Origin: Bacteroidota bacterium
Lineage (GTDB): Bacteria; Bacteroidota; Bacteroidia; Cytophagales; Cyclobacteriaceae
NCBI GenBank assembly: GCA_018267285.1
Contig: JAFDYU010000004.1
Span: 22,399 to 86,398 of the forward strand
DNA: 64,000 nt
Direction of reading: 5' to 3'
Under the pieces are notes generated by a model. The model made no database searches. It saw only the letters and a list, made by a program, of their open reading frames with translations, and was not told the DNA's origin. This document shows positions 24,698 to 36,266 of the stretch, in pieces. Within the stretch, counting starts at the first letter, position 1. Each line of letters begins with the position of its first letter. A program made the position numbers and the translations under genes.

Positions 24698-25978
24698 TTA
24701 AATCCGTTGCAACACGTGGCCCCTTTGGGCATCTAATTTCAATAAGATAAAAAGCAAAATTGTAAAACTCCACAGCGAAGAACCACCGTAACTGAAGAAC
24801 GGAAGCGGAATGCCGATAACCGGAACCAGCCCGATGGTCATGCCGATATTTACCACAAAGTGGAAAAAGAAAATTGAAGCCACGCTGTACCCATACGCGC
24901 GGGTGAAACGGTTTTTCTGGCGCTCTGCCAAAAAAAGAATGCGCAACAAAAAAGCAACAAACAAACCAATCACAATAGTGCTGCCAATCCACCCGTGTTC
25001 TTCACCTATGGTACAAAAAATAAAATCAGTGCTTTGGGCCGGCACAAAATCAAATTTAGTTTGCGTGCCTTTCAAAAACCCTTTCCCAAAAAAACCTCCG
25101 CTGCCTATGGCAATTTTGGACTGAGTTACATTCCAGCCAAATCCCAGCGGGTCGGCATCGGGATTGATAAGCGCCTTAACTCTATTTTGTTGATGTGGTT
25201 TTAAAACATCTTTTACGATGTAGTCCACACTGGCGATCACGCCACTAATCATTAGGGCAGCAAGGGTAAGTGTAACGATCCGTTTGATTTTTTTTCTGCG
25301 GTCAAAAACAATAAGCAATACCAGGATTGCGCCAATCGCTACGTACAGATAAGTTGGATCCGGAACGAGCAGCGTTAAAATAAAAATCACTGCGGCACAA
25401 ATGCCTACAATCAAAAGAAAAGGCGACATCCCTTCTCTAAAAAAAACCAAAATAAACGAAGCAAACACTAGGGCAGTTCCGGTATCTTTTTGAAGAAAGG
25501 TGAGCCCCATCGGCAAGCCTATTAAGACAAACAACAGGAATTGACTTCGTAAATTTTCCATCCGGAAGCCAACAGAACCGATAAACTTACCCACGGCAAG
25601 TGCCGTGATAAACTTTGCAAACTCCGAGGGTTGAATACCAAATGAGCCTATGCCGATCCATGCTTTGTTACCCCCTACTTCTTTGCCAATTACCGGAGTA
25701 AGCAACAATAAAAATAAAATCAACCCATAAAAAAAATAAGCAAACGTTTCGTAGAAACGCATGTCGATAATGGTAATAACAAACGCAACGAGAAAAGCGG
25801 CAACAATAAAAAGTAATTGACGACCTGAATTGAGCGACAAGTCAAAAACAGATTGATGGGTCTCGTCATAAACTGCTGCGTAGATGTTCAGCCACCCAAA
25901 TAAAACAAGCGCTCCGTACATGAACACGGTTGTCCAATCGATAGTACCCGATAGGTCATCGTCTCGCCTCATACTCAA
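24698..25978 (-). CDS. rodA: Rod-shape peptidoglycan polymerase RodA (SEDS family)
   Basis: SEDS glycosyltransferase that polymerises lipid II during side-wall growth, paired with PBP2. The 426 residues contain about ten membrane segments. Family motifs are present: IGSFGIQPSEFAKFITALAVGKF (conserved P-S-E-x-x-K), TFLQKDTGTALVF, the large extracytoplasmic loop with QNRVKALINPDADPLGFGWN, and GIPLPFFSYGGSSLWSF at the end. Its start overlaps the mrdA stop by four bases (ATGA), so the two are co-translated. Last gene of the mre-mrd cluster. Confidence 0.96.
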   Translation of the reverse strand: MSMRRDDDLSGTIDWTTVFMYGALVLFGWLNIYAAVYDETHQSVFDLSLNSGRQLLFIVAAFLVAFVITIIDMRFYETFAYFFYGLILFLLLLTPVIGKEVGGNKAWIGIGSFGIQPSEFAKFITALAVGKFIGSVGFRMENLRSQFLLFVLIGLPMGLTFLQKDTGTALVFASFILVFFREGMSPFLLIVGICAAVIFILTLLVPDPTYLYVAIGAILVLLIVFDRRKKIKRIVTLTLAALMISGVIASVDYIVKDVLKPHQQNRVKALINPDADPLGFGWNVTQSKIAIGSGGFFGKGFLKGTQTKFDFVPAQSTDFIFCTIGEEHGWIGSTIVIGLFVAFLLRILFLAERQKNRFTRAYGYSVASIFFFHFVVNIGMTIGLVPVIGIPLPFFSYGGSSLWSFTILLFILLKLDAQRGHVLQRI

Positions 25979-27792
25979 TCTAAAAATTTCCCTGCCAAAA
26001 CATAATCTTCCATGTATTGCCTACGCGTTTGTTTGAACAAATACCGTTCAATCATCAAGCTTGCAATGCTTGCCCCTGCCCGTGCGCCCTGCCCTGCATT
26101 TTCGACATAAACCGAGATGGCTATTTTTGGGTTATCGCGCGGAGCAAAGGCTATAAAAACAGAATGATCGGGGAAGGGTTCGTTTTGTACGGTTCCGGTC
26201 TTTCCGCATACAATTACATCGGGAAGTTTTGCATACCATTGTCCCGTTCCCGATTCCACCACTTGCTGCATCGCACTCACAGCTACTTTGAAATAGGTCG
26301 AGTCAACCGTAGTGTAATGTCGCAACGTGTATTGATGCAATGGCCTTCCTTCCTTACCTATAGCTTTGACCAGATGAGGTGTATAATAAAATCCGCGGTT
26401 GGCCACCGTTGCAGCAAAGTTGGCCATTTGCAAAGGCACCACCAGATTTTCTCCTTCGCCAATTGCAATAGAATAGATGTTCGAAAATTTCCACGGTTTG
26501 TTGTGGTATGCCCGATCGTATAGTTCCGGTGTTGGCACCAACCCGCTTTTCTCATTGGGCAGATCAATTCCAAGTTGGGTGCCAAAGCCAAAGCTCTTAA
26601 TGTGTTTGTCCCATTCGGTGAGGCCGAGGCGTGTATCTTCGTACGTGTCGGTCGATTTGTTTTGGTTTAACATCCTGCGGAGCACGTTGTGAAAATAAGG
26701 ATTGCAGGAGTTGGCAATCGCCCCTTGCAGGTCTTCAAACGAATGGTCTCCGTGGCAGTTGATAATCGTTCGGTCGCAGGGAATTCGTGTTTCAGGAATG
26801 ATCACTTTTTCCTGCAGGGCCGTGAGTGCCTGTACTATTTTAAAAATTGAACCGGGGCGATACTGTGCCATCAACGGCCGGTTGAACAGCGGCTTCAGGG
26901 TATCGCTGCTGATCGTTTTAAAATTGGAACTGTATTTTTTACCGGTTAATAAATTGGGGTCGTACGATGGCCCCGAAACCAGGGCGAGCACTTCGCCCGA
27001 TGAGGGTTCGATGGCTACAATGCTCCCCGCTTTACCTTTCATTAATTTTTCTCCATACTGCTGCAACTCCAGATCGATGCTGGAAACTAAATCTTGCCCC
27101 GGCACGGAAAGCGTATCGTACTCTCCATTATTAAATGATCCCTTTTCAATTCCCTTCACATTGCGCAGTTTAAATCGCACACCACGCTTCCCCCTCAGTT
27201 GCTCTTCGTAAAAAGCTTCGATACCGCTTTGCCCGATATAATCTCCCTGGCGGTAAATTCCGGTGGTGTCTTTTTTCAATTCTGTTTTGCTGATCTCGCT
27301 CACATACCCCAGCGCATTTGCCAATGCCGGAGATGTGTACGCACGCGTAGTTCTCGCCTGAATATAAAAGCCTGGGAACTCATCCAGCCGATCTTCTATC
27401 CTTGCCATGTCTTCGTTCGACAACCGTTCGATAAACCTCAGGGGCTTTACAGGCGAGTATTCTTTTTTTCGGGATTTAAGTTCTTTGAATTTTAATCTAA
27501 GCTCTTCGCGCGTTAGGTTAAACACCTCACAAAATTTAGCGGAGTCAAATTTTTTTACATCGTTTACGATAATTTGCAAATCAAATTCGGGAGTGTTGTA
27601 AACAATCAATTTTCGGTTTCGGTCGTAAATCAGTCCACGAAAAGGGTATTCAACTTGCCGTAAAATGGAATTGCTATTGGCCAGTTCGGCATAGTGGTTA
27701 TCCACTACCTGAATAAAAAACAATTTTACAATGAAGGTCAGCCCAACCAACACAAACACCAACTGGAAAATTTCTTTTCTGCCCTCATTCAT
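25975..27792 (-). CDS. mrdA: Penicillin-binding protein 2 (rod-shape transpeptidase)
   Basis: 605 residues from MNEGRKEIFQLVFVLVGLTF. The start at 27792 overlaps mreD by four bases and puts the membrane anchor at residues 8-28; the reading from 27885 lies inside mreD. PBP dimerisation domain about 50-230, transpeptidase domain about 250-600 with Ser315-I-F-Lys318 (active serine), Ser362-Cys-Asn364 and Lys531-Thr-Gly-Thr534. It cross-links peptidoglycan with RodA in the elongasome. Confidence 0.96.
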   Translation of the reverse strand: MNEGRKEIFQLVFVLVGLTFIVKLFFIQVVDNHYAELANSNSILRQVEYPFRGLIYDRNRKLIVYNTPEFDLQIIVNDVKKFDSAKFCEVFNLTREELRLKFKELKSRKKEYSPVKPLRFIERLSNEDMARIEDRLDEFPGFYIQARTTRAYTSPALANALGYVSEISKTELKKDTTGIYRQGDYIGQSGIEAFYEEQLRGKRGVRFKLRNVKGIEKGSFNNGEYDTLSVPGQDLVSSIDLELQQYGEKLMKGKAGSIVAIEPSSGEVLALVSGPSYDPNLLTGKKYSSNFKTISSDTLKPLFNRPLMAQYRPGSIFKIVQALTALQEKVIIPETRIPCDRTIINCHGDHSFEDLQGAIANSCNPYFHNVLRRMLNQNKSTDTYEDTRLGLTEWDKHIKSFGFGTQLGIDLPNEKSGLVPTPELYDRAYHNKPWKFSNIYSIAIGEGENLVVPLQMANFAATVANRGFYYTPHLVKAIGKEGRPLHQYTLRHYTTVDSTYFKVAVSAMQQVVESGTGQWYAKLPDVIVCGKTGTVQNEPFPDHSVFIAFAPRDNPKIAISVYVENAGQGARAGASIASLMIERYLFKQTRRQYMEDYVLAGKFLD

Positions 27793-28298
27793 GTGCGCGC
27801 GCGATCTGACGTTAAGTACTGTAACAACACCATAACCAGCATAGTGAACATCATGCTGTTGATGGTCTTCAGCATCGAATACCAAAATAAAGTGCCTGCT
27901 GATTCAACCAGAAATAAAACCAAATGGTGAATAAAGACAAGGGGCAATGTGTAAACCAAAAACCATTGCAGCCCTTGTTCGGAAATTTTTGGAACGGCTC
28001 CCGCATCGTATCCGCCTTGTGGTGTAATTACACTTAGCCAATAGTTTCTGATGTACGCAATAAAAACAGTAGTGAACGCATGCAAGCCCAGGCTGTCGTA
28101 AAAAATATCGACTGTAAAGCCCATGATAAAACCCAAAAGCATCAATACTAAATTGTTGGTTTCTATGGGCATTAAAAGAATGAACGCCACATACAAAAAA
28201 CAAAAACCTGAATTGAACAGCACCAGTTTTTTTAAAAAGGCTTGCGCGATTACGTACGCAAAAAAAGAAATGAAGAATATAATATTTGATCGTGTCAT
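27789..28298 (-). CDS. mreD: Rod shape-determining protein MreD
   Basis: 169-residue integral membrane protein with about five hydrophobic segments (IIFFISFFAYVIAQAFLKKL, LVLMLLGFIMGFTVDIFYDS, MMFTMLVMVLLQYL). The G-F-x-x-G-F-x-x-D-x-x-Y-D-S-L-G motif is typical of MreD. It links the elongasome to the membrane. Four-base overlaps with mreC upstream and mrdA downstream put it in one translation-coupled unit. Confidence 0.93.
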   Translation of the reverse strand: MTRSNIIFFISFFAYVIAQAFLKKLVLFNSGFCFLYVAFILLMPIETNNLVLMLLGFIMGFTVDIFYDSLGLHAFTTVFIAYIRNYWLSVITPQGGYDAGAVPKISEQGLQWFLVYTLPLVFIHHLVLFLVESAGTLFWYSMLKTINSMMFTMLVMVLLQYLTSDRART

Positions 28299-29134
28299 CT
28301 CGGTTCGCCAATGGTTATCAGTTCTAACGAATCTTTTTCTGCCTTACGTTTGGCGTTGATCACTTCCACAAAATTCAGCCTCCCAAAATCCTGACCAAGC
28401 TCTATTTTAATGTCGTAAAATAATGCTTCGTCACGCAGCTTAAATTCTTTGATCTTACCGATGAAAATGCCTGGAGGGAAAACGGCATTGTATCCGGATG
28501 TAACAACTGAATCGCCCACCAACGGTATTACATGCCGGGGGATGTACTTCAGGTCGATGTAGGAAGGATCGGTGCCATCCCATTGAATTGTTCCAAATTG
28601 GCCCGTGCGTTTTAGAACGCTCGAAACTTGATTATCAATATTCAGCAGAGAGATTAAAACAGCATAGTGTTTGGAAACCGATTTCACTTTGCCCACTGCC
28701 CCGAATGAGTTGGTTACAGCCATTCCAACTGAAATACCATCGGCTTGCCCCTGATCGATGGTGATAAAGTTTTTGTAGAATTTTGTTGAGTTGTTGATTA
28801 CCCGCGCCTGGATGTACTGAAAATTTTTTTCTACGGAGGAGTCGGGGCGTTGGTGCAGTTGCATCCGGTAGAGGCGCTGGCTCTGCTCTTCAATTTTATT
28901 GAGCAACATCGCATTGTTGCGCGAAAGGGTTGCGTTGATATCGGCCAACAAAAAATATTCCCGGATGTTCTGCGCGGAAGTATTTAACCATGCCACAACA
29001 CGATTGGATGAATTGAAGTATTTTGTGCTTTGGTACTGATTGTTGGCCACAATCAGCCAAGCACAAAAAAATTCTAACAACAAAAAAGTAAAGGAAGCCC
29101 TGTAGTAGTAAAGAAATTTAAATAGGCGTTCCAT
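28295..29134 (-). CDS. mreC: Rod shape-determining protein MreC
   Basis: 279 residues: one N-terminal membrane helix (FTFLLLEFFCAWLIV), a coiled-coil stretch about 60-95 (LSRNNAMLLNKIEEQSQRLYRMQ), then the periplasmic double beta-barrel (ITIDQGQADGISVGMAVTN, VVTSGYNAVFPPGIFIGKI), all diagnostic of MreC. It organises PBP2 in the elongasome. It lies 3 bases downstream of mreB and overlaps mreD by four bases. Confidence 0.95.
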   Translation of the reverse strand: MERLFKFLYYYRASFTFLLLEFFCAWLIVANNQYQSTKYFNSSNRVVAWLNTSAQNIREYFLLADINATLSRNNAMLLNKIEEQSQRLYRMQLHQRPDSSVEKNFQYIQARVINNSTKFYKNFITIDQGQADGISVGMAVTNSFGAVGKVKSVSKHYAVLISLLNIDNQVSSVLKRTGQFGTIQWDGTDPSYIDLKYIPRHVIPLVGDSVVTSGYNAVFPPGIFIGKIKEFKLRDEALFYDIKIELGQDFGRLNFVEVINAKRKAEKDSLELITIGEPR

Positions 29135-29137
29135 TCA

Positions 29138-30163
29138 TCAAGTCATGAGCACTTTACGATAGTGGTTGATATTTTTCAGCGCTGCACCGGTGCCGCGCAC
29201 CACAGCCCGAAGCGGATCTTCCGCAACATGAATGGGCAGTTTTGTTTTCAGTGCAAGGCGCTTGTCGAGCCCGCGCAGCAAGGCTCCACCTCCGGTTAGG
29301 TAAATTCCCTGCTCATAAATATCAGCCGACAACTCGGGGGGCGAAAGTTCGAGTGCCTTCAGTACGGCTTCTTCCAGTTTGGATACGGACTTGTCTAACG
29401 CAAACGCAATCTCCGAATAGGATATTTTTATTGTTTTCGGTATGCCCGTCATCAAATCGCGGCCACGGATTTCATAATCATCGGGCCCGTCATCCAATTC
29501 GGTCATGGCCGACCCGGCCTCGATCTTCACCCGCTCGGCCGATCGCTCACCTATCAATAAGTTGTGTTGCCTGCGCATGTAGTCGAGAATATCGCGGTTA
29601 AAAGTATCTCCGGCCACCCGTATGGATTGATCGCAAACAATACCCGACAAGGCAATCACGGCAATGTCGGTGGTGCCACCGCCAATATCCACCACCATGT
29701 TGCCCACGGGTTGTTCAATATCTATACCGGAGCCGATGGCAGCCGCAATCGGCTCGTAAATCATGTACACTTCTTTGGCGTTGGCGTGTTCGGCAGAATC
29801 TCTAACGGCACGTTTCTCCACCTCGGTAATGGCCGAAGGGATACAAATTACCATTCGAAGTGAGGGCGGAAAAAATCTGCGTCCCGTGTCGATCATTTTG
29901 ATCAGGCCCCGGATCATCATCTCGGCCGCGTGGAAATCTGCAATAACGCCCTCTTTCAACGGGCGGATGGTGCGGATGTTGTCGTGCGTTTTCTCGTGCA
30001 TCTGCATAGCATCGCGCCCAATGGCCAGCACCCGGTTTGAATTTTTGTCGATGGCAATAATGCTGGGTTCATCTACAACTACTTTGTCTTTGTGGATGAT
30101 GAGCGTGTTTGCCGTGCCAAGATCTATAGCGATGTCGCTGGTGAAAAAGTCGAAAAGTGCCAT
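29138..30163 (-). CDS. mreB: Actin-like cell shape protein MreB
   Basis: 341 residues. Actin-fold nucleotide motifs: SDIAIDLGTANTLI (phosphate 1), NMVVDIGGGTTDIAVIALSG (phosphate 2), YLTGGGALLRGLDKRL (adenosine). It forms membrane filaments that guide side-wall synthesis, implying a rod-shaped cell. It heads the mreB-mreC-mreD-mrdA-rodA run. Unlike most genes here it has a strong Shine-Dalgarno sequence (30172-30179). Confidence 0.97.
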   Translation of the reverse strand: MALFDFFTSDIAIDLGTANTLIIHKDKVVVDEPSIIAIDKNSNRVLAIGRDAMQMHEKTHDNIRTIRPLKEGVIADFHAAEMMIRGLIKMIDTGRRFFPPSLRMVICIPSAITEVEKRAVRDSAEHANAKEVYMIYEPIAAAIGSGIDIEQPVGNMVVDIGGGTTDIAVIALSGIVCDQSIRVAGDTFNRDILDYMRRQHNLLIGERSAERVKIEAGSAMTELDDGPDDYEIRGRDLMTGIPKTIKISYSEIAFALDKSVSKLEEAVLKALELSPPELSADIYEQGIYLTGGGALLRGLDKRLALKTKLPIHVAEDPLRAVVRGTGAALKNINHYRKVLMT

Positions 30164-30171
30164 GAAGAGCG

Positions 30172-30179
30172 TCCTCCTT
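30172..30179 (-). promoter_or_regulatory. Strong Shine-Dalgarno site of mreB
   Basis: On the minus strand AAGGAGGA stands 8 bases before the mreB ATG, with GGAGG nine bases from it. Bacteroidota genes mostly lack such sites and most starts in this window have none, so this is an exception consistent with high or specially controlled expression of the cluster. Confidence 0.7.
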
Positions 30180-30269
30180 TTTTGAAAAATTTAATTAACC
30201 CGAAATTAAAGAAATAATCACCGGATTTTTCACCAATTCAGCAAGAAACTTATAGATGTGCGATTATTC

Positions 30270-31793
30270 TCAATGCTTAAAATGCCTGAAGCCCGTAAAG
30301 ACCATAGCCATGTTGTGGTTGTTACAGAAATCAATGGAGTCTTGATCTTTGATGGAGCCTCCCGGCTGAATCACCGCAGTGATGCCGTGCTGGCTGGCGA
30401 TCTCAACACAATCGGGAAATGGAAAGAAGGCATCGGATGCCATCGCTGCTCCGTTCAAATCGAAACCGAACGACTTTGCTTTTTCAATCGCCTGCTTCAA
30501 CGCATCTACACGGCTGGTCTGGCCAACACCGCTCGAAAACATCTGCCCCTCAACCGCCAGAATGATGGTATTCGACTTGGTATGTTTGCAAATTTTACTG
30601 GCAAATAGGAGCGCGTTTGTTTCCTGTTGCGTTGGAGCGCGCCTGGTCATCGTTTTCAAGTCTGCTTGCGAATCGGTATGCAAGTCCAAATCTTGTTCGA
30701 TCACTCCGTTGAGTAAACTCTTGAATTGTTTTGCAGCTGTGAGATTTTGTTTTTGTTTGAGGATGATCCGGTTTTTTTTCGACTTCAATAATTCTAACGC
30801 GCTTAGATCAAACTCGGGGGCCACTAAAATTTCGAAAAAAAGTTTGTTGATCTCTTCGGCTGCCTGCAAATCAATTTTTTTGTTCGTAGCCAAAACACCT
30901 CCAAAGGCAGAAACCGTATCCGCTTGAAACGCTTTGAGGTAAGCTTCTTTAACCGAAGATGCGGTGGCCACTCCGCAGGCGTTGGTGTGCTTGATGATGA
31001 CGAAGGCCGTTTCATCAAATTCCTTAATTAGGTTTATGGCCGCATCAACATCTACTAAATTATTGTACGAAAGTTCTTTGCCGTTAAGCTGATCGAAAAG
31101 TTTTTCCAGTTCGCCAAAATATACTCCTCGTTGATGCGGGTTTTCGCCATAGCGTAGTGCTTTTCCGTTTGGATAACTCGACTTAAAACTAATGATGTTT
31201 TGTTCTTGATTGAAATACGTGAAAATAGCGGAATCGTAGTGCGAGGTAACCTCGAAGGCCAACGCGGCAAATCTTTTTCTGTCGGCCAAATCGGAAGAAC
31301 TATTTTTGGTTTTCAGCAATTCCAAAACCTCGGCATATTGAGCGCGCGAAGAAACGATGAGCACATCCTTAAAATTTTTGGCTGCCCCGCGAATCAGTGA
31401 AATACCACCGATGTCTATTTTCTCAATAACGTCTTCCTCGCCTCCGCCTTTGGCAACGGTCTCTTCGAACGGGTACAAGTCAACGATTACCAAGTCGATG
31501 GGTGCGATCTTAAATTCTTCTGCTTCTTTCACATCTCCCGATTCCTCCCTTCTATAAAGTATTCCGCCAAATACAGCCGGATGAAGCGTTTTCACCCGTC
31601 CGCCAAAAATCGATGGATAACCCGTCAGTTGCTCTACGGGCGTTACTTGGTAGCCCAACTTCTCAATAAACTCCTGAGTGCCACCGGTAGAAATAAATTC
31701 TACGTTTTGTTTGGCCAACTCGTGCACAATGGCATCCAGCCCATCTTTGTAAAAAACTGAAACCAGGGCGCGGGTAATTTTCTTTGAAGTCAT
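30270..31793 (-). CDS. purH: Bifunctional AICAR transformylase / IMP cyclohydrolase PurH
   Basis: Catalyses the last two steps of IMP synthesis. 507 residues from MTSKKITRALVSVFYKDG; an in-frame start at 31811 lies within the promoter and is rejected. The IMP cyclohydrolase (MGS-like) domain spans about 1-190 (STGGTQEFIEKLGYQVTPVE, GRVKTLHPAVFGGIL). The formyltransferase domain follows (LRYGENPHQRGVYFG, VIIKHTNACGVATAS with the catalytic Lys-His). It lies upstream of mreB in the same direction with a 106-base gap; function is unrelated to mreB. Confidence 0.96.
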   Translation of the reverse strand: MTSKKITRALVSVFYKDGLDAIVHELAKQNVEFISTGGTQEFIEKLGYQVTPVEQLTGYPSIFGGRVKTLHPAVFGGILYRREESGDVKEAEEFKIAPIDLVIVDLYPFEETVAKGGGEEDVIEKIDIGGISLIRGAAKNFKDVLIVSSRAQYAEVLELLKTKNSSSDLADRKRFAALAFEVTSHYDSAIFTYFNQEQNIISFKSSYPNGKALRYGENPHQRGVYFGELEKLFDQLNGKELSYNNLVDVDAAINLIKEFDETAFVIIKHTNACGVATASSVKEAYLKAFQADTVSAFGGVLATNKKIDLQAAEEINKLFFEILVAPEFDLSALELLKSKKNRIILKQKQNLTAAKQFKSLLNGVIEQDLDLHTDSQADLKTMTRRAPTQQETNALLFASKICKHTKSNTIILAVEGQMFSSGVGQTSRVDALKQAIEKAKSFGFDLNGAAMASDAFFPFPDCVEIASQHGITAVIQPGGSIKDQDSIDFCNNHNMAMVFTGFRHFKH

Positions 31794-31808
31794 AGTATTT
31801 TGGAGGGT

Positions 31809-31816
31809 CAAATGTA
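31809..31816 (-). promoter_or_regulatory. -7 element of the purH promoter
   Basis: On the minus strand TACATTTG (complement of 31809-31816) matches TAnnTTTG and ends 15 bases before the purH ATG. No -33 TTG occurs at 17-23 bases upstream. It supports the start at 31793. Confidence 0.5.
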
Positions 31817-31960
31817 CTTAGATGAATCCTATTTCTGATACTACTCGCGGCAATTCAAATTTGGCTTTCCATTTCAATAGAGGCTGCCCGAAGTCTGTTG
31901 AAAAAAGTGGGGGTCAAACAGTTGTTAGCTGAAATATTTAAGAAAAAGCTGCTGCCTCAT

Positions 31961-31991
31961 TTGCGTAGTAAAAAAAATTCTGTTTTATTTG
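31961..31991 (+). promoter_or_regulatory. Candidate promoter of the aromatic amino-acid operon
   Basis: TTG (31961-31963, part of ATTTG), a 20-base spacer, and TTTATTTG (31984-31991), which differs from TAnnTTTG at one position. The element ends five bases before the leader-peptide ATG at 31997, so transcription would start at or beside that ATG. TTTGACCC (31988-31995), overlapping the -7, is the exact inverse complement of GGGTCAAA at 31911-31918, a possible operator or leader-independent fold. A perfect TATTTTTG also occurs inside the leader-peptide codons (32018 region), a competing choice. Confidence 0.5.
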
Positions 31992-31996
31992 ACCCA

Positions 31997-32062
31997 ATGA
32001 ACACCGTACAGCGATTTTATTTTTGGTTTTACTTTTTTCAATCCCATCGGGACTTGAGGTAA
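31997..32062 (+). CDS. Aromatic amino-acid leader peptide (attenuator)
   Basis: A 21-codon reading: ATG at 31997, stop TAA at 32060-32062. After M-N-T-V-Q-R come F-Y-F-W-F-Y-F-F, eight consecutive aromatic codons (five Phe, two Tyr, one Trp), then Q-S-H-R-D-L-R. Runs of the regulated amino acid are the hallmark of ribosome-mediated attenuation (pheL, trpL, hisL in Proteobacteria). The downstream operon makes Phe and Tyr and contains DAHP synthase, which also feeds Trp. The final codons carry CGGGACT, needed for the proposed antiterminator. Not homologous by sequence to enterobacterial pheL as far as I can see; identification rests on composition and position. Confidence 0.8.
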   Translation: MNTVQRFYFWFYFFQSHRDLR

Positions 32063-32135
32063 AATCGCTTTGTAAAAGGAAAAACAGACAAACGAAAACA
32101 TCAGAGAGTCCCGGCAAAAACCGGGACTTTTTATT
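32048..32135 (+). terminator. Attenuator: antiterminator segment and intrinsic terminator before pheA
   Basis: Terminator: AGTCCCGG (32107-32114), loop CAAAAA, CCGGGACT (32121-32128), then a T-rich tract TTTTATTTT; the 8-bp stem is perfect. CGGGACT at 32048-32054, inside the last codons of the leader peptide, duplicates seven bases of the 3' arm and can pair instead with the 5' arm. A ribosome stalled in the early aromatic codons leaves 32048-32054 free, forming the antiterminator; a ribosome reaching the stop covers it, allowing termination. The end of the hairpin is 33 bases before the pheA ATG. Confidence 0.82.
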
Positions 32136-32160
32136 TTATATAAAAAGAGAAAAAGATCAC

Positions 32161-33003
32161 ATGCGTAAACCAGAGAAATTAAAAATAGCCATTCAGGGGA
32201 TATCCACCTGCTTTCATGAAGTTGCCGCCCGCGAATATTTTCAAGATGCGATAGACCCGGTGGAGTGCCTCACGTTTCACAAGCTTTGCGAATCGCTGAA
32301 AAAAAATGAATGTGATTTCGCCATGATGGCCATTGAGAACACCATTGCCGGAAGCATCCTCCCCAACTATTTCCTGCTTCAAGAATATAAATTCTCCATT
32401 GTGGGAGAAATCTACTTGCCGATTCATCTTCATCTGCTGGCATTGCCGGGCGCACAACTCACCGACATCAAAACCATTGAAAGCCACCCCATGGCCATCC
32501 GCCAGTGTTACGATTTCTTACATAAGCTAAACGGAATAGAGCTGCGCGAAAGCGATGACACGGCAATATCCGCCCGAAAAGTAGCCGAGAAAAAAAATAA
32601 AGCTACGGCAGCCATAGCCAATGAGTTTGCGGCCGAGCGGTTCGGCCTGACTATGCTTGCGCGCAGAATTGAAACTCATAAAAAGAATTTTACAAGATTC
32701 TTGGTGTTGTCGCGTGCAGCAAAAAGTAAAGAAGAGAGCAACAAGGCTTCGCTGTGCTTTGAAGTTTTTAATGAAGTGGGTAGCCTTGCCGATGTGCTCA
32801 CCGTTTTTAAAACCAACCAAATCAACCTGAGTAAAATCCAGTCCATACCCGTAATTGGCAAGCCGCGCGAATATTCTATTCATGTAGATGTAGAGTGGGC
32901 ACACCGAAAAAATTATGAAGCTGCCATGAAGCAGGTGCAAAAACAAACACACAATTTAAATGTGTTTGGCGAGTATAAGAAAGGGAAGATTGAGTACAAG
33001 TAA
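32161..33003 (+). CDS. pheA: Prephenate dehydratase with ACT domain
   Basis: Converts prephenate to phenylpyruvate for phenylalanine synthesis. 280 residues from MRKPEKLKIAIQGISTCFHEVAAREYF; an in-frame start at 32023 would read through the leader and terminator region and is rejected. The catalytic domain spans about 8-185 (CDFAMMAIENTIAGSI, THKKNFTRFLVLSR with the conserved T-R-F). The ACT regulatory domain spans about 198-275 (ASLCFEVFNEVGSLADVLTV), implying feedback control by Phe. No chorismate mutase domain here; that activity is supplied by the fusion at 35166. First structural gene after the attenuator. Confidence 0.94.
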   Translation: MRKPEKLKIAIQGISTCFHEVAAREYFQDAIDPVECLTFHKLCESLKKNECDFAMMAIENTIAGSILPNYFLLQEYKFSIVGEIYLPIHLHLLALPGAQLTDIKTIESHPMAIRQCYDFLHKLNGIELRESDDTAISARKVAEKKNKATAAIANEFAAERFGLTMLARRIETHKKNFTRFLVLSRAAKSKEESNKASLCFEVFNEVGSLADVLTVFKTNQINLSKIQSIPVIGKPREYSIHVDVEWAHRKNYEAAMKQVQKQTHNLNVFGEYKKGKIEYK

Positions 33004-33040: not shown

Positions 33041-34240
33041 ATGATAGAGTTTGCAAAAAGAATACAAGGTGTTGAGGAGTATTACTTCAGCAAAAAGTTG
33101 GCGGAAGTACGATCGCTCGATACTCCTGAATTGAGAATCATCAACCTGGGCATCGGCAGTCCTGATCTTGCTCCGTCCGGAAATACGATTGAGGCGTTGA
33201 TCGCTTCGGCCAAAAACCCCGCCCATCACGGCTACCAGAATTACAAAGGCATACCCCAACTGCGCGAAGCCATATCGGGGTTTTACAAAAAGATTTATTC
33301 AGTGCCACTCCATGCGGAATCGGAAATTCTTCCGCTTATGGGTTCGAAGGAAGGCATCCTGCACATTTGTATGGCCTTTGTAAACGAAGGCGATGAGGTG
33401 TTGATTCCGGATCCGGGATACCCCACGTATGCCTCTGCTGCAAAACTCACCGGTGCAAAAACGGTTACCTACGAAATGAAGGAGGCGTTAAACTGGGGCA
33501 TCGATATTTCTGCGCTTAGAAAAAGAGATCTATCGAAAGTGAAGATCATGTGGGTAAACTTTCCGCACATGCCCACCGGGCGAGTAGCTACGATAACCGA
33601 ACTGAAAGAACTTGTAAGCCTTGCCCGCGAAAACAATTTTTTAATTGTAAACGATAACCCCTACAGTTTAATCCTTAACGAAAATCCACTCAGCATTTTA
33701 TCGGTTGAGGGTGCGCACGAGGTTGCACTTGAGCTGAACTCGCTGAGCAAATCGCACAATATGGCAGGCTGGCGCATCGGCTGGGCAGCAGGCCGTAAAG
33801 AATATATCGATGCCGTGCTGCGCGTGAAAAGCAATATGGACTCCGGAATGTTTTTAGGTTTGCAACATGCCGCTGTCGAAGCGTTGACAAATGGAGATGA
33901 CTGGTTCACTACGCAAAATTCGATTTATCGAAAAAGACAAAAGCTTGCATTCAAAATCTTGGATGAATTGAATTGCAGTTATTCCTCAAAACAATCGGGA
34001 TTGTTTGTGTGGGCAAAAGCCCCCGATCAAATCGCTGATGTTGAAAAATGGATTGACAAAATTCTATATGCAACGAAAATATTTATCACTCCGGGGTTTA
34101 TTTTCGGTGACGCAGGGAAAAGATTCATTCGTATTTCGCTTTGTGCAAGTGAAGAGAAATTGAACGAAGCATGGGAAAGGATTAATCGTTACAAATTATC
34201 CGTTAATCGGAAAAACTCACAATCGACAATTAACGGATAA
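33041..34240 (+). CDS. PLP-dependent aminotransferase, class I/II, of the aromatic operon
   Basis: 399 residues with fold-type I motifs: INLGIGSPDLAPSGNTIEAL, YQNYKGIPQLREAISGFY, LIPDPGYPTYASAAKLTGA, and the Schiff-base Lys237 in LNSLSKSHNMAGWRIGWAAG. Its place between pheA and tyrA suggests it transaminates phenylpyruvate and 4-hydroxyphenylpyruvate (or prephenate) with glutamate or aspartate. Specificity is inferred from context only; aspartate or LL-diaminopimelate aminotransferase are family alternatives. 37 bases after pheA, 7 before tyrA. Confidence 0.9.
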   Translation: MIEFAKRIQGVEEYYFSKKLAEVRSLDTPELRIINLGIGSPDLAPSGNTIEALIASAKNPAHHGYQNYKGIPQLREAISGFYKKIYSVPLHAESEILPLMGSKEGILHICMAFVNEGDEVLIPDPGYPTYASAAKLTGAKTVTYEMKEALNWGIDISALRKRDLSKVKIMWVNFPHMPTGRVATITELKELVSLARENNFLIVNDNPYSLILNENPLSILSVEGAHEVALELNSLSKSHNMAGWRIGWAAGRKEYIDAVLRVKSNMDSGMFLGLQHAAVEALTNGDDWFTTQNSIYRKRQKLAFKILDELNCSYSSKQSGLFVWAKAPDQIADVEKWIDKILYATKIFITPGFIFGDAGKRFIRISLCASEEKLNEAWERINRYKLSVNRKNSQSTING

Positions 34241-34247
34241 AGAAAAA

Positions 34248-35090
34248 ATGAAAGTAACAATTATTGGTTTGGGTTTGATCGGTGGTTCGATGGCCATCGC
34301 ACTCCGAAAAAGCGGAATGGCCACATCCTTGTTGGGCATAGATCTAAGCCCTGCGCATGCTGCCAAAGCGGTGCAGTTGGGTATTGTGGATCGAATGATT
34401 TCTGAAAATGAATTGTCGCAAAGCGACTTGGTGATTATTTCCATTCCGGTGGATGCCTGTTGTGTGCTTTTGCCAACCGTACTGAATTTAATCAGCCCCA
34501 CTGCCGTGGTGATGGATATGGGGTCGACAAAAAACCTGATTTGCAAAACGATAGCCGCACACCCAAACCGCCAACAATTTGTAGCCGCACATCCCATAGC
34601 GGGCACAGAATTTTCGGGGCCAGAGGCTGCGTTCTTCGGTTTGTTCGAGGGAAAAACCAACATTGTATGCGAGCGCGGAAAATCTTCAAGTTACGCGTTG
34701 GGTGTCGCTCAAAAAGTTTTTGACTCGGTGGGCTTAAAAACCATTTTCATGGAACCCGAAGAGCACGACAAGCACGTGGCCTACGTTTCGCACCTCTCTC
34801 ACGTAAGTTCTTTTTTACTCGGCCAAACCGTACTCGATATAGAAAATGACGAAAAAAATATTTTCGACCTTGCCGGAAGCGGTTTCGCCTCTACGGTGCG
34901 GTTGGCCAAAAGTTCGCCCGATATGTGGGCTCCTATTTTTGAACAAAATGCAGAGTATTTAAGTCAGGCGTTGCTGGAGTACATCATGCACTTGCAAAAA
35001 TTTCAGTATTTTTTACAAAAACGAGATACCAAAGAACTTCATAAGATTATGACAAAAGCCAATGACATTAAACGAATTCTAAAAAATTAA
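34248..35090 (+). CDS. tyrA: Prephenate dehydrogenase
   Basis: Oxidative decarboxylation of prephenate to 4-hydroxyphenylpyruvate for tyrosine. 280 residues: Rossmann motif MKVTIIGLGLIGGSMAIALRKSG at the N terminus, VVMDMGSTKNLIC, AAHPIAGTEFSGPEAA and HDKHVAYVSHLSHVSSF (catalytic His region), and LAGSGFASTVRLAKSSPDMW. No ACT domain, so regulation is probably at transcription through the attenuator. Third gene of the operon. Confidence 0.93.
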   Translation: MKVTIIGLGLIGGSMAIALRKSGMATSLLGIDLSPAHAAKAVQLGIVDRMISENELSQSDLVIISIPVDACCVLLPTVLNLISPTAVVMDMGSTKNLICKTIAAHPNRQQFVAAHPIAGTEFSGPEAAFFGLFEGKTNIVCERGKSSSYALGVAQKVFDSVGLKTIFMEPEEHDKHVAYVSHLSHVSSFLLGQTVLDIENDEKNIFDLAGSGFASTVRLAKSSPDMWAPIFEQNAEYLSQALLEYIMHLQKFQYFLQKRDTKELHKIMTKANDIKRILKN

Positions 35091-35165: not shown

Positions 35166-36266
35166 ATGAAGAAAGGATTAGAACTGCAATCGATCAAGAG
35201 TTGGATGAACACCGAAAAGCCCATCATCATCAGCGGGCCATGCAGTGCAGAAACCGAAGAGCAAACCGTGGCTACCGCAAAACAAATTGCAGCCACCGGC
35301 AAAGTACATGCCTTGCGTGCCGGCATTTGGAAACCCCGCACAAGGCCCGGGCAATACGAGGGCGCGGGCGATATTGGCCTGCAGTGGCTCATGTCTGCAA
35401 AAAAAGAAACCGGATTACCCGTAACCACAGAAGTTGCAAATGCCGCACACGTTGAGGCGTGCCTGAAAGCCGGTGTAGATATTTTATGGATAGGCGCACG
35501 CACCACCGTAAATCCGTTTTCGGTACAAGAAATTGCAGACTCCCTGAAAGGCGTTGACATTCCGGTGATGGTAAAAAATCCGGTGAACCCCGACCTAGAA
35601 CTTTGGATAGGTGCGCTCGAACGATTGAACAAAGCCGGCATCAAAAAAATGGCTGCCATCCACCGCGGGTTTTCTTCGTTCGAAAAAGGGCCGTTCAGAA
35701 ATCTACCCATGTGGGATATCGCCATTGAATTGAAAACGCGTTTTCCCGAGCTTGATATCATCTGCGATCCGAGCCACATTTCGGGCAACCGCGATCTCAT
35801 TGCATTCATTTCGCAAAAAGCACTCGATCTCGACATGGCAGGTTTGATGATCGAAAGCCACATCAACCCCGATGCGGCCTGGAGCGATGCCAAGCAGCAA
35901 GTTACACCGGCTGTGCTCGGAAAAATTATCAGCGAACTGGTGGTACGCAAAACTTCGAGCGAGGATAAAACATTTAAAGATACACTGAGTCTGCTGCGCG
36001 AACAGATTGACCAGATTGACGATGAGGTTATGCAAAAATTGGCGCAGCGAATGAAAATTTCTGAAAAGATTGGCCAGTACAAAAAAGAAAACAACGTAAC
36101 TATCCTTCAGGTAACCCGATGGGAAGAGATTATACACACACGCATTGCGCTGTGCAAAGCCATGGGGTTGAGCGAAGAGTTTACCACCGAATTGCTAAAA
36201 TTGATTCACCACGAATCGATACAAGTACAAACAAAAGTGATGAACCAGATGAAAGCGAGAGTATGA
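35166..36266 (+). CDS. DAHP synthase - chorismate mutase fusion
   Basis: 366 residues with two domains. About 1-265 is a type I-beta (KDO8P-like) 3-deoxy-7-phosphoheptulonate synthase: PIIISGPCSAETEEQ, LRAGIWKPRTRPGQYEGAG, PVTTEVANAAHVEACLKAGVD, CDPSHISGNRDLIAFIS. About 275-366 is an AroQ-type chorismate mutase: LLREQIDQIDDEVMQKLAQRM and ARMKISEKIGQYKKEN-like helices with catalytic Arg and Lys. It thus combines the first step of the shikimate pathway with the branch step to Phe and Tyr. 75 bases after tyrA with no obvious terminator between. Confidence 0.94.
   Translation: MKKGLELQSIKSWMNTEKPIIISGPCSAETEEQTVATAKQIAATGKVHALRAGIWKPRTRPGQYEGAGDIGLQWLMSAKKETGLPVTTEVANAAHVEACLKAGVDILWIGARTTVNPFSVQEIADSLKGVDIPVMVKNPVNPDLELWIGALERLNKAGIKKMAAIHRGFSSFEKGPFRNLPMWDIAIELKTRFPELDIICDPSHISGNRDLIAFISQKALDLDMAGLMIESHINPDAAWSDAKQQVTPAVLGKIISELVVRKTSSEDKTFKDTLSLLREQIDQIDDEVMQKLAQRMKISEKIGQYKKENNVTILQVTRWEEIIHTRIALCKAMGLSEEFTTELLKLIHHESIQVQTKVMNQMKARV

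Follow-up and report, generated by a model that had tools for sequence, protein, structure and literature searches.

The window, that is, the whole 64-kb stretch of DNA analyzed here, carries on its plus strand an operon headed by pheA. The products of the operon are phenylalanine and tyrosine, and its DAHP synthase also feeds tryptophan. The genes are the following:

32161 to 33003, + strand: pheA, prephenate dehydratase with an ACT-like and no chorismate mutase domain (Pfam PDT, E 1.5e-54)
33041 to 34240, + strand: class I/II aminotransferase (Pfam Aminotran_1_2)
34248 to 35090, + strand: tyrA, prephenate dehydrogenase (Pfam PDH_N/PDH_C; NF006307 above cut-off)
35166 to 36266, + strand: DAHP synthase fused to chorismate mutase (Pfam DAHP_synth_1 and CM_2)

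The ACT-like domain of pheA scores 24 bits, under the Pfam cut-off of 27. An earlier note on this DNA had described an operon holding pheA, tyrA, and DAHP synthase, and the Pfam content agrees, adding the aminotransferase and the chorismate mutase. Upstream, a purH-type gene (Pfam) is divergent from the phe/tyr operon; positions 25975 to 31811 of the minus strand hold this gene and, as judged by eye, a cell-shape-like set (PBP2, MreD, MreC, and MreB).

Ahead of pheA lies a leader region with the following features:

31960 to 31991, + strand: candidate Bacteroidota-type promoter, TTTG (31960 to 31963), 20 nt, TTTATTTG (31984 to 31991)
31997 to 32062, + strand: leader peptide open reading frame (ORF), ATG at 31997 to 31999, 21 codons MNTVQRFYFWFYFFQSHRDLR, stop TAA at 32060 to 32062; read from the sequence
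32011 to 32019, + strand: strand 1, 5' side of the outer 1:2 helix, GCGATTTTA, beginning just ahead of the aromatic codons and extending into them; from the fold
32015 to 32038, + strand: regulatory codons Phe Tyr Phe Trp Phe Tyr Phe Phe; read from the sequence
32039 to 32045, + strand: inner protector arm CAATCCC, pairing within 32049 to 32056 and thereby hiding strand 2; from the fold
32048 to 32055, + strand: strand 2, the antiterminator CGGGACTT, a copy of the terminator 3' arm in codons 18 to 20, pairing with 32106 to 32113
32060 to 32068, + strand: partner of strand 1, 3' side of the outer 1:2 helix, TAAAATCGC, starting at the stop codon; from the fold
32103 to 32114, + strand: strand 3, the terminator 5' arm, common to the antiterminator; from the terminator scan and covariation
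32121 to 32137, + strand: strand 4, the terminator 3' arm (to 32132) and the T-rich tract; from sequence reading, scan, and covariation

The eight successive aromatic codons in a 21-codon peptide that the earlier note reported are confirmed by direct reading (32015 to 32038), as is its CGGGACT repeat of the terminator 3' arm, present as CGGGACT(T) at 32048 to 32055. The 8-bp terminator stem with a T tract ahead of pheA was also rightly recognized: its core is AGTCCCGG (32107 to 32114) and CCGGGACT (32121 to 32128), and the scan extends it to 12 pairs (32103 to 32132, G-T pairs allowed). By sequence, an intrinsic terminator thus stands between the ORF and the first structural gene, with 98 nt from the leader stop to pheA. 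Added to the earlier list is GCGATTTTA/TAAAATCGC with the inner CAATCCC pairing, which corresponds to the classical 1:2 helix. The leader from 31998 to 32140 has a folding energy of -37.7 kcal/mol, which none of 200 shuffles equals (z = -4.29), and the antiterminator stretch, at -18.9 (z -2.06), is about equal to the terminator at -18.7. No other ORF of 7 to 60 codons on either strand of the window has 7 or more aromatic residues in 10.

Leaders ahead of pheA in relatives

Relatives of pheA were drawn from 58 related genomes, from 148 genomes of the phylum, and from named loci (the best 80 of at least 588 confirmed), and 159 upstream regions were examined, some genomes having come by two routes. 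An aromatic ORF (at least 6 of 10 residues) together with a terminator precedes pheA in 118 of the 159 regions, representing 109 distinct sequences; by batch, the positives are 56 of 59, 58 of 80, and 4 of 20, and 41 regions failed the joint test. The terminator filter required a T-rich tail, and the tail in relatives is therefore not independent evidence. When the 159 regions were dinucleotide shuffled to give 3180 versions, an aromatic ORF (at least 7 of 10) arose in 13 of these, compared to 118 of the 159 real regions. The stricter test, which adds the terminator to that ORF, gave 105 of 159 real regions and 0 of 3180 shuffles. A search of the 58 genomes for the strand 2 and terminator pattern of the window's core found it in 12, once each, always just upstream of pheA and all in the genus, and a reversed-pattern control gave 0 matches.

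Both Phe and Tyr codons are present in all 118 leaders, each at least twice in 117, and Trp codons in 35 only; over the 118 aromatic stretches there are 487 Phe, 427 Tyr, and 35 Trp codons. The sensing of all three aromatic amino acids, as the earlier note proposed, is thus not a general trait, and the same genome has a separate WWW leader ahead of trpE. Sensing of tryptophan is possible in the window's own species, as in about one-third of the others.

An alternative in-frame start for the leader of the window, TTG, is found at 31898. The comparison across the 118 leaders points to the ATG instead: an in-frame ATG lies 2 to 10 codons ahead of the aromatic run in 113 of them, compared to only 5 and 3 for the other frames. 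Across the 118 leaders, 59 to 285 nt (median, 83) separate the leader stop from the pheA match. A sequence like the Shine-Dalgarno (SD) sequence is found at the leader start in only 2 of 113 cases, and position -3 of the leader ATG is A or G in 83%. Bacteroidota mRNAs are described as being without SD sequences and as favoring A at -3 (PMC6847099, PMC9976891, and PMC8710568), and the leaders fit both properties.

A generic sigma-70 scan of 31500 to 32700, on both sides of the terminator, found no plus-strand site. The Bacteroidota promoter consensus is TTG-N18-23-TAnnTTTG, and TTTATTTG has one mismatch to its TAnnTTTG part; the same promoter spacing is seen by eye in L002. Within 110 nt upstream, the consensus occurs in 38 of 113 leaders, in 33 of which it ends 16 to 28 nt before the ATG; both figures are raw counts. 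From TTTG-N20-TTTATTTG, a guess at the promoter, we infer that transcription would start within a few bases of the leader ATG.

Relatives that keep pheA and lack the leader were what the earlier note had set against its own reading, and here the outcome is divided. The window's genus has the leader in 31 of 32 genomes with a pheA match, but in the order outside the genus, where 15 genomes have a match and 10 were examined, only 2 (G055 and G047) have it, and the terminator of G047 is imperfect as judged by eye. In the remaining genome of the genus (L021) the leader is frameshifted: its run is out of frame in a T-rich stretch, and pheA there has an in-frame TGA, both perhaps sequencing errors. 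Five of the leaderless genomes of the order outside the genus have a distant pheA inside a longer open frame of 358 to 382 aa, probably bifunctional. Three others (G050, G051, and G054) have a pheA 41 to 46% identical to that of the window with another same-strand ORF 41 to 93 nt upstream. A search of 10 to 13 kb in these three revealed no leader followed by a good terminator.

In the class draw (from the 148 phylum genomes, with the window genome excluded), an aromatic ORF is directly upstream of pheA in 28 of 32 genomes, and the total with one is 30 of 32. The hunt for leaders farther from pheA covered 7 leaderless regions and found moved leaders in 2. G132 and G167 of this draw have a leader and terminator 3.5 kb upstream of pheA, heading an aromatic gene cluster; in G132 the leader is followed by DAHP synthase/chorismate mutase, then by aroB-like and aroA-like genes (by eye), and then by pheA. 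The last 2 of the 32 genomes have another ORF directly upstream and no leader within 13 kb. The leaders that stand 3.5 kb upstream of pheA in two genomes of the family are on the minus strand (L227, 6661 to 6566, and L228, 6737 to 6642), and that of L227 heads an expanded aromatic cluster, ahead of DAHP synthase/chorismate mutase. Outside the class, the leader was found in 3 of 15 regions examined, out of 95 matches.

Among the best 80 of the at least 588 named loci, the nearest pheA loci are from Cyclobacteriaceae and metagenome-assembled genomes (MAGs) labeled ‘Flammeovirgaceae’, which fits Cytophagales. The positives in this set belong to these two groups and to Sphingobacteriaceae (Mucilaginibacter, Pedobacter, Sphingobacterium, and others), with one Bacteroidales, two Prevotellaceae MAGs, and a few broadly or oddly labeled loci in addition. 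In the same set the leader is absent from all nine loci of Prolixibacteraceae, some of which we take to belong to that family from their genus, and from three MAGs labeled Flavobacteriales. In about half of the 22 named negatives, an ORF on the same strand stops at most about 150 nt upstream of pheA; the ten where this is not so are L091, L110, L115, L119, L122, L123, L124, L129, L138, and L139. Two loci under labels of other phyla, L131 (a MAG of candidate division KSB1) and L078 (a MAG labeled Legionellaceae), have a Bacteroidota-like pheA with an aromatic leader and a terminator, which would reflect either horizontal transfer or mis-binned contigs.

Helices of the leader and their compensatory changes

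The terminator core is variable, falling into 36 crude classes by script, and in many cases the leader copy varies with it, as in CGGGGCTT with AAGCCCCG (L004), GGGGGATT (L024), CGAGGCTTT (L043), TCAGGATT (L143), and TGGGAC (L118). For 36 representatives, the match of the leader to its own terminator arm is 5.89, compared to 4.78 for swapped arms (sd 0.18; 0 of 5000 as good), and for all 118 leaders it is 6.96 compared to 5.81 (sd 0.10; 0 of 1000). In 29 of the 118, the terminator arm is copied over no more than 3 to 5 nt, about as much as with swapped arms. A similar permutation of the outer 1:2 helix, which drew on the 105 of 118 leaders whose copy is 5 nt or longer, gave 16.6 compared to 13.3 for 61 representatives (sd 0.34; 0 of 5000).

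The covariation alignment (A3) contains 30 close leaders. For the 1:2 and 3:4 helices together, 86.7% of cells are paired and 54 changes are two-sided, compared to 80.6% and 20.0 in shuffles, and the signal drops when the helices are slid; two other measures on this alignment, ‘pairs with a change on both sides’ (71/500) and ‘further pair types’ (241/500), are no better than shuffles. The antiterminator (2:3) has 89.5% of cells paired and 8 two-sided changes, compared to 86.3% and 3.1 in shuffles, with 4 pairs changed two-sidedly. The first pair of the outer 1:2 helix is G-C in 13 of the 30 leaders and C-G in 11, and the inner protector arm has 85.7% of its cells paired. Of the helices, RNAalifold run on the same 30 leaders returned the terminator and a 3-pair inner hairpin but not the outer 1:2 helix. 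The fold of the 1:2 region has a mean z of -2.0 over 31 of the 118 leaders, three of which are not below zero. The leaders have a mutually exclusive antiterminator, spanning the end of the ORF and the terminator 5' arm, that is kept by compensatory change, and a 1:2 helix over the control codons that hides strand 2.

Strand 2 begins 9 nt past the aromatic run in the window and 6 to 16 nt past it in the 89 leaders whose copy is 6 nt or longer. In these 89, its reading frame, taken by the first GG, is frame 0 in 8, frame 1 in 40, and frame 2 in 35; it spans the stop codon in 1 and starts at or after it in 5. Different lineages thus translate strand 2 in each of the three frames, so that it is kept as RNA; conservation of the peptide can hardly account for this. 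The C-terminal tails of the peptide, e.g., GLERESVC, are repeated within one clade, are unlike between clades, and overlap the helices.

Proposed attenuation and its alternatives

We interpret the leader as a ribosome-mediated transcription attenuator of the phe/tyr operon, with a probability of about 0.92. This was the interpretation of the earlier note, and it is now supported by conservation, covariation, operon content, and specificity; by Pfam scan, the structural genes make the amino acids that would be sensed. The sequences themselves show which parts are there, how these are ordered and spaced, that they are conserved, and that they undergo compensatory changes. We infer where transcription starts, that the ribosome translates the leader, and how the element responds to starvation.

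In the proposed mechanism, transcription would start just upstream of the leader ATG, and a ribosome would translate the 21-codon peptide close behind the polymerase, coupling of the two being assumed. A shortage of Phe-tRNA or Tyr-tRNA, and in the window's species perhaps of Trp-tRNA too, would stall the ribosome in the aromatic run, where it would open the 1:2 helix and leave strand 2 free to pair with the terminator 5' arm. The antiterminator so formed would allow transcription of pheA, the aminotransferase gene, tyrA, and the DAHP synthase/chorismate mutase gene. With a good supply, the ribosome would reach the stop codon and cover strand 2, the 3:4 terminator would form, and transcription would stop near 32135; if there were no translation, the 1:2 helix would form and the terminator would win as well. 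Given the ribosome footprint, the distance of 6 to 16 nt from the aromatic run to strand 2 means that a stalled ribosome should leave most of strand 2 free and one at the stop codon should cover it. The Phe and Tyr codons are interleaved, so that a shortage of either should open the operon, as in an OR gate. A published model of attenuation predicts that sensitivity rises with the share of regulatory codons in the control region (PMC1183508).

The short ORF might instead act on translation, or as an upstream ORF from which ribosomes reinitiate at pheA, the hairpin being a processing or stability element. A role in reinitiation has been suggested for leader genes that lie near structural genes, their distances peaking at 11 to 14 bp in Bacteroidetes (PMC4833913), but the leader stops found here, 98 nt from pheA in the window and 59 to 285 nt in the 118 leaders, are far beyond that distance, and strand 2 fits its own terminator arm better than those of others; we consider this explanation very unlikely. 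We give still less weight to an RNA switch that binds a ligand or a protein (a riboswitch or T-box-like element), with the aromatic ORF a by-product of U-rich RNA. The 5' region is indeed structured, a terminator is present, and the codons are U-rich. However, T-box and riboswitch families are absent among the 13 Rfam matches up to E 5, the ATG is in frame in 113 of 118 leaders compared to 5 and 3 for the other frames, shuffles of the same composition yield an aromatic ORF in only 13 of 3180 cases, and the repeated residue follows the operon, being Trp for trpE and His for hisG.

Chance, in the form of an AT-rich sequence with an accidental hairpin, has a negligible probability: the region is AT rich, but the arm-swap, shuffle, 1:2 permutation, pattern-search, and covariation tests all speak against it. 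The attenuator could also work as proposed with an additional action in trans of the leader peptide or the short RNA, as reported for peTrpL of Sinorhizobium (PMC7298713), and tails such as GLERESVC are repeated within a clade. These tails vary between clades and overlap the helices, however, and nothing else indicates such a function, so that we regard it as improbable.

The attenuator interpretation invites comparison with known systems. Leader-peptide attenuation is textbook knowledge in Proteobacteria, and the enterobacterial pheL-pheA attenuator (Rfam RF01859, Phe_leader) is similar to the leader of the window in its Phe-rich peptide, its terminator before pheA, and the order of its parts. 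The E. coli pheL peptide has Phe without Tyr, whereas the peptide of the window mixes the two, its operon adds tyrA and DAHP synthase, and it has no SD sequence. The match of the window to RF01859 is weak (30.5 bits, E 0.0036), below the gathering score of 55. At gathering there were no Rfam matches in 18 related loci of the 159, and the window has sub-threshold matches only, the 13 up to E 5, of which Phe_leader is the only one that makes sense; a T-box leader was considered and rejected, as no T-box match is among them. The multivalent ilv-type leaders of enterobacteria, compared by their general design, likewise combine codons for several products in one leader and differ in amino acids and lineage.

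Attenuators in Bacteroidetes/Chlorobi were reportedly predicted by Vitreschak et al. in 2004 and Lopatovskaya et al. in 2010, which would be the same mechanism and possibly the same phylum. According to a 2010 survey, none were known outside Proteobacteria and Actinobacteria before its own case in Firmicutes (PMC2965389), and a map of B. thetaiotaomicron contains sORFs ‘reminiscent of leader peptides’ (PMC7366714). A 2021 transcriptome paper on Flavobacterium psychrophilum called attention to a structured 5' element that lies ahead of pheA and is conserved in Flavobacteriaceae, and it reported ‘strong clues’ of attenuation by leader peptides before amino acid operons (PMC9723704). That element shares with the leader of the window the phylum, the gene, and the missing Rfam hit; the text of that report available to us gives no peptide, helices, or distribution past the family, so that the two are compared by description only, and they are likely identical. 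The earlier note's remark that this leader was not known to be described is qualified by that report; it does stand in that our literature search, in which subscription papers were scarce, found no dedicated description of a Phe/Tyr leader elsewhere. The kind of element is therefore known, and the Phe/Tyr leader has probably been partly seen before. To this the present analysis adds how the element is built, its Phe and Tyr logic and covariation, where it occurs and where it is missing, and the companion leaders of the same genomes, for Trp, His, and possibly Thr. The Bacteroidota thereby gain an anatomized, widely conserved amino acid attenuator that has no match at gathering in Rfam release 15.

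Sister leaders before other amino acid operons

We somewhat favor the broader view that Bacteroidota have a suite of classical attenuators (Phe and Tyr, Trp, His, and probably Thr) working on non-SD ribosomes, in which the Phe/Tyr leader would be an old two-input OR gate of the class, able to head a longer aromatic operon. If this is true, RNA polymerase and the first ribosome would be tightly coupled, and the transcript in the window's species might be nearly leaderless. A tractable host such as Flavobacterium johnsoniae would allow a direct test of transcription-translation coupling without SD initiation, and annotators would have an aid to recognizing small leader genes ahead of phe/tyr, trp, his, and perhaps thr operons.

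For trpE, 28 genomes have a match, 20 loci were taken, and 19 of these had upstream sequence; a WWW leader precedes trpE in 16 of the 19. Three of the 16, that of the window's genome included, have no terminator past the filter, although by eye one can see a GC-rich hairpin and a T-run there. In the window's genome the leader ORF before trpE (L234, G000:C22) is MNKISANAWWWYRSFFDRCPAMP, with three Trp codons. For hisG, 22 genomes have a match and 20 loci were taken; in 18 of these, that of the same genome included, an ORF carries 4 or more His among 8 residues, and some terminator passes the filter in 17 of these 18, one of them weak. The leader before hisG in the window's genome (L235, G000:C12) is the His-rich IHHHHLFH, with a terminator. 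That the regulatory residue changes with the operon, to Trp for trpE and to His for hisG, is strong support for ribosome-mediated control.

No convincing Leu/Ile/Val leader was found before ilvD in 20 loci. Before thrA, short Thr/Ile-rich ORFs (at least 8 of 10 residues) are present in 5 of 8 regions of the genus, with the gene start first set by a crude rule, and no terminator in these 8 regions passes the filter. The window's genome has nine successive Thr codons at about 728 to 770 of L276 (G000:C24), ahead of a gene of the aspartokinase/homoserine dehydrogenase type, and this ORF ends about 75 nt before the likely gene start.
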